Assembly (NCBI GenBank): GCA_029779385.1
Contig: JAKPAQ010000067.1
Location: 1-5,437 of the forward strand
Source: Actinomycetes bacterium
GTDB lineage: Bacteria; Actinomycetota; Actinomycetes; Propionibacteriales; Nocardioidaceae
Reading direction: 5' to 3'
DNA: 5,437 nucleotides
A program made the position numbers and the translations under genes. This document shows positions 1,024 through 5,437 of this stretch, piece by piece (the stretch's first letter is position 1; the number at the start of each line of letters is the position of its first letter). Below the pieces are notes generated by a model. It had not been told where the DNA came from, made no database searches, and saw nothing but the letters and a program-made list of their open reading frames with translations.

Positions 1024-1075
1024 GGGGTCACTGCACCGCCGATCATTCGGCGGGTGTTTTGTGTGTAGTGACTTC
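1024..1075 (+). promoter_or_regulatory. Putative antiterminator stem in the infC leader
   Basis: GGGGTCACT (1024-1032) can pair with AGTGACTTC (1067-1075) over nine positions, two of them G-U. This encloses hairpin 2 (1034-1056). The 1067-1075 segment is also most of the left arm of the terminator, so the two folds exclude each other. The enclosed hairpin 2 (seven GC-rich pairs, plus two beyond a bulge, then TTTT) could itself act as a weak terminator or a ligand-binding element. The pairing is seen directly in the sequence; the switching role is inferred. Confidence 0.45.
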
Positions 1076-1099
1076 CGCTTCGACGGAGGTCACTTTTTT
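1067..1099 (+). terminator. Intrinsic terminator-like hairpin upstream of infC (attenuator)
   Basis: The left arm AGTGACTTCCG (1067-1077) pairs with CGGAGGTCACT (1084-1094): 11 pairs with one U-G wobble and a 6-nt CTTCGA loop. Six T follow directly (1094-1099, the first paired). This is the classic layout of a Rho-independent terminator. It lies after the predicted promoter and 32 nt before the infC start, so it would act as an attenuator of infC-rpmI-rplT. It could also end any readthrough from the hisG-PH-SseB unit. Confidence 0.7.
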
Positions 1100-4334: not shown

Positions 4335-5437
4335 GTGTCTGCGCCCAATTCTGACTATGACCCGGTCGAGGTGACGCCACTGCGCGCCGATGAGGTCGAA
4401 CGCATGCGTGACGAAGCCCTAGCGGCCATCGCCGCGGCCAACACCATCGCCGAACTCAAACAGGTCCGAAGCGACCACGCCGGCGATCGGTCCGGGCTGG
4501 CTTTAGCCAACCGCGAGATCGGCGCGTTGCCGCCGGCGGCCAAAAAAGATGCTGGCAAGCGGATCGGCCAGGCCCGTGGCGCAGTGAACCAGGCATTGGC
4601 GGCGCGCCTTGAAGAGGTTGAGGCGATCGAGTTTGAGCAACGGCTCAACGAAGAGGTCGTCGACGTAACGTTGCCGACTGACGTTGAACCAGTTGGCTCG
4701 CGCCACCCGATAACTACGATCCAAGAGCTAGTCGCGGACATTTTCGTTTCGATGGGTTGGGAAGTGGCCGAAGGTCCAGAAGTCGAAGCCGAGTGGCTGA
4801 ACTTCGACGCGCTCAACCTCGGTCCCGACCACCCGGCCCGCACCATGCAAGACACTTTCTGGCTCAGTCCTGAACGCGCCGCGATGGTGCTGCGTACGCA
4901 CACTTCGCCGGTGCAAGCCAGAACTATGCTCACCCAAGAGCCGCCGATCTACGTGGTTTGTCCGGGTCGGGTTTATCGCACCGACGAGGCTGACGCCACC
5001 CACATGCCAGTGTTCCACCAGGTTGAGGGTCTGGCGATCGACCGGGGACTGTCGATGGCCCACCTGAAGGGCACGCTGGATCACTTCGCTCAAGCCATTT
5101 ATGGCCCGGGCTTGACGACGCGTTTTCGGCCGTCCTATTTCCCGTTCACTGAGCCGTCTGCCGAAGTGGACTTGCTCTGCTACGTCTGCCAGAACGATCC
5201 GGCGGAGGTCGCGAGTTGTCGCACTTGCGGGGGAGAAGGCTGGGTTGAGTGGGGCGGCTGCGGAGTGGTCAATCCGCGTGTCCTGATCGCTTGTGGCGTT
5301 GACCCGAACGAGTACTCGGGCTTCGCCTTCGGGATGGGACTTGACCGCACAATCACTAGCCGTTACGACATCGCTGACCTGCGTGACTTGTGGGACGGCG
5401 ATGTGCGATTCACTGAGCCTTTCGGAGTTGGTCTCTA
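4335..5437 (+). CDS. pheS: Phenylalanyl-tRNA synthetase alpha subunit (3' end cut by at most one base of the stop)
   Basis: PheS carries the catalytic core of the heterotetrameric enzyme that charges tRNA-Phe. The open frame encodes 367 residues and ends DVRFTEPFGVGL, a typical actinobacterial terminus. It is followed by TA at the window edge, almost certainly a split stop codon. Residues 15-110 form the N-terminal coiled coil that contacts tRNA. The class II core follows: motif 1 near 136-151, RTHTSPVQARTM (187-198), motif 2 GRVYRTDEADATHMPVFHQVEGL (211-233), FPFTEPSAEVDL (269-280) and motif 3 GFAFGMGLDR (329-338, with R338). By motif position A331 matches E. coli Ala294 of the amino-acid pocket. 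An insert at 282-298 carries C282-x2-C285-x9-C295-x2-C298, a likely zinc site. pheT is expected just downstream. GTG 4335 was chosen by the adjacent promoter and family length. Confidence 0.96.
   Translation, partial: MSAPNSDYDPVEVTPLRADEVERMRDEALAAIAAANTIAELKQVRSDHAGDRSGLALANREIGALPPAAKKDAGKRIGQARGAVNQALAARLEEVEAIEFEQRLNEEVVDVTLPTDVEPVGSRHPITTIQELVADIFVSMGWEVAEGPEVEAEWLNFDALNLGPDHPARTMQDTFWLSPERAAMVLRTHTSPVQARTMLTQEPPIYVVCPGRVYRTDEADATHMPVFHQVEGLAIDRGLSMAHLKGTLDHFAQAIYGPGLTTRFRPSYFPFTEPSAEVDLLCYVCQNDPAEVASCRTCGGEGWVEWGGCGVVNPRVLIACGVDPNEYSGFAFGMGLDRTITSRYDIADLRDLWDGDVRFTEPFGVGL

Follow-up and report, generated by a model that had tools for sequence, protein, structure and literature searches.

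The 5,437-nucleotide stretch of DNA analysed here (contig JAKPAQ010000067.1, hereafter the window), from a member of the Nocardioidaceae, raises the question of whether an actinomycete controls its infC operon by transcription attenuation and, if so, whether the leader RNA is a counterpart of the one controlled by bL20 in Bacillus. Binding of bL20 to the H1/H2 junction in B. subtilis is accompanied by formation of the terminator H4, and the same source describes the L20 leader RNA as narrowly distributed to Firmicutes (PMC6097659). By IF3, the nearest named relatives of the bacterium studied here are Aeromicrobium (86–90% for the best three).

The infC operon and its leader terminator

The operon lies on the forward strand and comprises infC (1132–1821, encoding IF3; TIGR00168, PF05198/PF00707), rpmI (1824–2018, bL35; TIGR00001), and rplT (2057–2449; PF00453, TIGR01032), the product of which, bL20, is a candidate feedback ligand. 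The infC gene has an ATC start, as is likewise stated for Streptomyces in the accessible text of PMC5472188, and is preceded by a Shine-Dalgarno sequence, AGGAGG, at 1122–1127; in the list of open reading frames it begins at an internal GTG rather than at the ATC. Further downstream, a 15-nt perfect inverted repeat (2463–2477/2523–2537, arms 45 nt apart, followed by CTTTTC) spans the start, at 2468, of a SpoU-type methyltransferase gene. Upstream of the leader, a −35-like TTGAAC (946–951) is located 18 nt ahead of a −10-like TAAACT (970–975); a promoter consensus scan of the window reported none. The −10-like hexamer would place the start of the RNA near 981–983, so that the main antiterminator strand described below would be the 5′ end of the RNA.

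An intrinsic terminator is found in the leader at 1067–1099, as the initial annotation had described, and corresponds to H4 of the L20_leader family. Its 11 pairs (1067–1077/1084–1094) enclose a 6-nt loop and are followed by a T6 tract at 1094–1099. Folded alone, positions 1067–1094 reach −17.0 kcal/mol (z −4.4). The hairpin is also kept within the genus set, which consists of the window and 47 further loci (48 leaders; sequence alignment A2), with 94.7% of cells paired. The left arm together with the loop (1067–1083) is the segment that antiterminator strands can pair with.

Two candidate partners of the terminator arm

The initial annotation proposed that the left arm could instead pair with GGGGTCACT at 1024–1032, across a GC-rich hairpin. 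These elements are all present: GTCACT occurs at 1027–1032 and 1089–1094, flanking AGTGAC at 1067–1072, and the hairpin (P3/H3, originally given as 1034–1056) occupies about 1033–1057, where it is seen in the folds and, in A2, varies among relatives. The complementarity is longer than was described, with 13 pairs between 1024–1036 and 1063–1075, three of which are G-U. When 1001–1056 was matched against 1061–1083, the best pairing, which includes this one, was equalled by 14 of 2,000 shuffles; a target begun at 1067, without 1063–1066, gave 210 of 2,000 and was replaced by the longer-target test. Anchored on the end of P2, one of the two stems described in the next section, the 1024–1036 strand has a z of −5.1 in the window.

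A longer pairing of the same terminator arm, absent from the initial annotation, involves 982–998 and 1067–1083. It comprises 16 pairs (11 from 982–992 and five from 994–998) with one mismatch, and none of 2,000 shuffles was as good. This 5′ strand emerges as the main antiterminator from the free fold, the genus alignment, the anchored test, the shuffles, and the cross-clade matrix. Another site in the 5.4-kb window, near 5194, pairs slightly better with 1067–1083 (−23.8), so energy alone is not decisive, and position and conservation decide.

Within the genus set, the anchored 5′ strand has z < −2 in 35 of the 48 leaders (mean z −3.2), and its pairing is kept in 93.1% of cells, against 39.5–52.4% when slid. 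Covariation of this pairing is slight there (0.195 vs 0.181; 10 of 500 shuffles scored at least as well), and energies with own and with other leaders' terminators are both −17.0, because the 5′ strand hardly varies within the genus. The downstream strand reaches z < −2 in 7 of the 48 leaders (the window, L081–L083, L085, L086, and L095), with a mean z of −0.8 and nearly the same energy with its own terminator as with those of other leaders (−11.8 vs −11.7). Its nine core pairs are kept in L081–L086, with one change on both sides, from U-A to C-G at 1032/1067, and a U-A to U-G change in L083–L086. A single compensatory change between 1024–1032 and 1067–1075 is found among close relatives; the seven alignable pairs show none across A2, where they are complete in 11 of the 48 rows. 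The share of paired cells for these seven is 70.8%, and shifting the register by one position leaves it at 69.3% or 67.0%. This count is blurred, since the 14 both-side cells at the +1 slide indicate that MAFFT misplaced the P2 strand by one column in part of the alignment.

For a wider comparison, the P1 pattern served to select 125 of 128 Actinomycetes leaders (all except L052, L057, and L065), so the invariance of AAGYGGAG among them is partly a matter of construction. Three genomes occur twice in this set (L001/L102, L002/L107, and L003/L088). A terminator was found in 122 leaders (all except L008, L026, and L044), although some of the Streptomyces ones are misplaced. Both sides of the 5′-strand pairing differ between clades, and assigning each clade's 5′ strands to its own terminators was the best of 120 assignments (112 of the 125 leaders). 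Mean energies with own terminators were −24.4 in Aeromicrobium, −24.3 in Nocardioides, −26.9 in Propionibacteriaceae, and −27.5 in Streptomyces, the last coming close to the value for Streptomyces strands with Nocardioides terminators (−26.2). The exception is Mycobacteriales, in which the own pairing is weak (−16.2, against −19.1 with Nocardioides terminators). Mycobacterial leaders, of which L024 and L056 are examples, keep the P1-P2 core and have a weak pairing of 5′ strand and terminator; in them, CCGGUCAC after P2 seems able to pair with GUGAUCGG further downstream, perhaps as part of a different fold. Over the 122 leaders with a terminator, a duplex test gave z < −2 in 80, with energies of −22.5 for self, −18.7 for cross, and −14.9 for shuffled pairs. 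In folds of RNA ending at the terminator loop, the predominant partner of the left arm was the 5′ strand in every leader of the genus set (48 of 48) and in 57 of 74 others.

It is unlikely that the downstream strand (1024–1032, extending to 1036) is by itself the working antiterminator while the 5′ strand is not. The length and shuffle rarity of its 13 pairs, its z in the window, and the core pairs kept in L081–L086 with the change at 1032/1067 all speak for such a reading. Against it stand the few genus leaders with z < −2, the near-identical counts for slid pairings, and the same role of the 5′ strand in the other four clades compared, apart from mycobacteria. The folds are a further argument, as the free minimum-energy structure of the window leader is the 5′-strand antiterminator (−49.3), whereas forcing the nine downstream pairs gives −46.0, 3.3 kcal/mol above it. 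With 982–992 kept single-stranded, RNA ending at 1083 folds into the downstream pairing, while the whole leader folds into P2, P3, and the terminator. On sequence evidence, the terminator arm is predicted to have the 5′ end of the RNA, and not the strand first proposed, as its general partner. The pairing first proposed is supported as a real but local feature, a putative second antiterminator of the window and its close kin.

The P1-P2 core and its distant relatives

The region of the 5′ strand also contains a conserved core (983–1028) that is absent from the initial annotation. P1 (H1; 987–1001) is formed by 989–992/997–1000 plus 987/1001, and is seen in the terminator-forced fold, in alignment A1, and in the covariation of A3. 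P2 (H2; 1002–1028) is formed by 1002–1005/1025–1028 with an inner helix at 1010–1013/1018–1021, and is seen in the terminator-forced fold and in A1, in which the P2 column pair 38/82 occurs as UG, CG, UA, and GC. P1 competes with the main antiterminator, and the 3′ strand of P2 (1025–1028) overlaps the downstream one.

The core, AAGYGGAG..CUCCCACC..P2..GGU, lies ahead of infC in 78 of 81 loci (the window and L001–L080), with AAGCGG in the Nocardioides leaders. It is missing in L052, a Propionibacteriaceae MAG, and in L057 and L065, a Kitasatospora and a Streptomyces; these last two still carry a terminator-like hairpin despite lacking the consensus P1. Mimicry of the bL20 site in 23S rRNA was considered and set aside: in the three relatives compared, the corresponding strand of the rRNA has AAGUGG in common with P1, but hardly anything beyond that.

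Since reading frames are open through the window leader, a translated leader peptide could be imagined to control the terminator. This alternative was set aside as highly improbable because A2 shows one-nucleotide indels among members of the genus, both in the loop of P1 and in the core; moreover, the conserved columns are those of the stems.

A covariance model of the core, R1, scores the window core at 43.5 bits (1.4e-10), with the window itself among the 52 training rows. Its best match is at infC in all 11 genomes searched, which in nine of them is so by construction because they supplied training rows; apart from infC, no site was matched below E 0.011, the value of the next best match anywhere, which speaks against the second copy before infA that PMC3207917 suggests. 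We also scanned 296 genomes of the phylum, a search that is no census given the strict filters and partial placement, and obtained 34 hits in 33 genomes. All 20 matches with E ≤ 2.3e-5 are directly upstream of infC on the same strand. Among the 14 weaker matches, two precede infC (G323 and G280), nine lie elsewhere, and three (G153, G231, and G080) are unplaced against the infC positions listed.

Upstream regions from 16 distant genomes of the Actinomycetota do not carry the consensus pattern, yet 12 of them share the layout while differing in their stems, as exemplified by CAAGAAGGG..CCCUCACCUCC; in L197 the terminator loop is complementary. The addition of sixty further upstream regions gave 76 deep regions, of which 52 contain a loose motif; 39 were picked by hand, and 35 passed a rule requiring both P1 and P2 stems. 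Alignment A3 consists of 31 of these deep leaders and A4 of 25, the starts of five being set by hand. The 97.4% of paired cells in A3 is inflated by the stem-requiring rule and by hand-picking; the useful part is that P1 and P2 covary, with 63 cells changed on both sides against 17.7 in shuffled data.

Covariation of P1 and P2 in the deeper lineages also bears on the proposal that the terminator is unswitched, being that of a small RNA (Scr1601-like) or a plain damping device, with the 5′ complementarity as a by-product. Rfam does file the Streptomyces version as a small RNA gene (RF02830), but a plain terminator has no need of a 5′ strand and an arm that differ together between clades, and strong R1 sites precede infC. 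We therefore regard this proposal as very unlikely. The initial suggestion that the infC leader contains an attenuation switch is supported, with two exclusive pairings of the terminator arm kept in homologues.

The relation of the leader to RF00558, the Rfam family of the Bacillus L20_leader, was examined directly and through the deep leaders. The Infernal search of the window against Rfam that the initial annotation called for returned only matches far below gathering scores, with none to RF00558 up to E 10. RF00558 also did not find the leader in six Actinomycetes genomes, and none of eight genomes exceeded its cut-off of 58.7 bits. When 20 of the 76 deep loci, chosen for resemblance, were run against Rfam, RF00558 matched 12 infC loci at E ≤ 5, five of them at 2.8e-9 to 3e-5; all deep matches are below the gathering score, the best deep relative having 56.1 bits. 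In two deep genomes searched whole, the best RF00558 match is the infC leader (G091, 2.0e-10; G331, 2.2e-7), followed by matches at 1e-3 and 0.011, respectively. At E ≤ 10 the model has matches in 13 of 14 control genomes, so weak RF00558 matches mean little. In 6 of the 12 shared loci, the R1 match (E 9e-4 to 0.6) starts within 1 nt of that of RF00558.

Two further models connect the deep leaders with the window, with E-values that are rough owing to short calibration. R2, built from deep leaders without the window, places 980–1034 first in the window (17.3 bits, E 3.3e-4) and recovers the core in 31 of the 38 Actinomycetes leaders tested from among loci L001–L080 (E 8.4e-7 to 0.23). R3, from CUCACC-type deep leaders, likewise places 980–1034 first, at only 8.5 bits (E 0.026); it recovers the core in five of the 38 loci from Actinomycetes and in one of seven deep loci. 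A low-scoring R2/R3 match recurs within the infC coding sequence near 2290–2350 (L002, L007, L014–L016, L028, L030, L044, L072, and L079), probably by chance over conserved codons. Descent can thus be followed through intermediates, from RF00558 to the deep leaders and, by R2 and R3, to the window, with the R3 step being weak (E 0.026).

A terminator was found in 35 deep leaders, of which six reach z < −2 for the 5′ strand (L192, L197, L220, L226, L237, and L241); in four the terminator pairs instead with the P1-P2 middle (z < −2). These mixed pairings suggest that the wiring may differ in deep leaders.

Proposed switch, its ligand, and known systems

In the window leader, forcing the terminator gives −48.9 with P1, P2, and P3 formed. 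The predicted energies of this state and of the free fold (−49.3) are nearly equal, as expected of a switch tipped by a ligand. Our preferred reading, to which we assign a probability of about 0.7, is that the leader is related to the Bacillus L20 leader but has diverged from it, and that P1 and P2, the candidate bL20 site (core 980–1034), sequester the strands of both antiterminators and so permit terminator formation. In the ON state, pairing of the initial ~17 nt of the RNA (982–998) with 1067–1083 would block the terminator; in the window and its close kin, 1024–1036 could take the same arm as a second antiterminator. In the OFF state, P1 would lock the 5′ strand and P2 would lock 1025–1028, leaving the left arm free, and the terminator (1067–1099) would halt RNA polymerase ahead of infC. 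As P1 takes up the 5′ strand, and P2 positions 1025–1028 of the downstream strand, a ligand holding both stems would disable both antiterminators. By analogy with Bacillus, surplus bL20 would bind the P1-P2 junction and favour the OFF state. The alternative pairings, their conservation, the near-equal predicted energies, and the homology chain are observed here; the role of bL20 as ligand and the operation of the switch in vivo we infer.

The same switch might respond to a ligand other than bL20 bound to P1-P2, whether IF3, a different ribosomal protein, or an intermediate of assembly, which we consider unlikely. IF3 is the first product of the operon, and in Streptomyces the ATC start is described as making IF3 autogenous at translation (PMC5472188, in the accessible text). 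The actinomycete core also differs from RF00558, with GGAG/CUCC in P1 and CCCACC in place of CUC.CC, and the 5′ UTRs of infA and infC in M. tuberculosis are reported to align, hinting at a shared signal (PMC3207917, available portion). However, the homology chain leads to RNAs that are read as bL20 leaders, and R1 has no second site below E 0.011 in the 11 genomes searched. A broader conjecture, of about the same rather low likelihood, is that Actinomycetota and Firmicutes share a single infC attenuator of ancient origin and that in Actinomycetes its sensor moved to a new signal, for example IF3, uniting transcriptional feedback and translational feedback through the ATC start on one mRNA.

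Returning to the bL20 reading, the initial guess that the leader is an actinobacterial counterpart of the Bacillus one gains support from the homology chain through the deep leaders. The accompanying remark that it does not look like the Bacillus leader holds for a direct Rfam search; it does not hold for the architecture, in which H1–H4 and AAG...CACC...GGU can be traced via the deep leaders. As in the L20_leader of the B. subtilis infC-rpmI-rplT operon (RF00558), the RNA precedes infC-rpmI-rplT and has AAG, H1, a C.CC junction, and H2 in order, H2 closing with GG, then a variable H3 and the terminator H4. The two differ in the junction, CUC.CC in the RF00558 consensus and CCCACC in the window, the latter with GGAG/CUCC in P1; the window and the six Actinomycetes genomes are outside the model. 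Having no RF00558 match at the cut-off, the leader is described here as a relative and not filed as a member.

Scr1601 (RF02830), a Streptomyces small RNA, matches the infC leader of L016 at gathering level (178.7 bits, 1693–1905), from ahead of P1 to the terminator. This was the only match among 18 loci scanned, and RF02830 has none in the window, which is consequently not assigned to that family. Scr1601 differs in being filed as a small RNA gene rather than as a cis-regulator; it is said to be confirmed by expression and to lie in a UTR in S. ambofaciens (PMC8388888, in the text available). If the proposed reading is true, this listed small RNA would be the stopped form of an mRNA leader, and L20-type control would reach Actinomycetota, Streptomyces included.

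Among other known systems, M. tuberculosis shares a long infC leader, and related mycobacterial loci carry the core. RPKM of its infC 5′ UTR is given as 2.6 times that of the coding sequence in exponential phase and 4.9 times in stationary phase (PMC3207917); the available portion of that paper differs from the present account in offering the infA UTR alignment and a general analogy to L20 control, with no switch. An actinobacterial infC leader switch was likewise not found in the open-access literature searched. In E. coli, bL20 feedback acts on the same genes, rpmI-rplT, but at translation, via a pseudoknot and a hairpin, according to the accessible part of PMC10931766. Set beside these systems, the leader is ordinary in kind and notable in reach, being an L20-related infC attenuator in a phylum outside the reported range.
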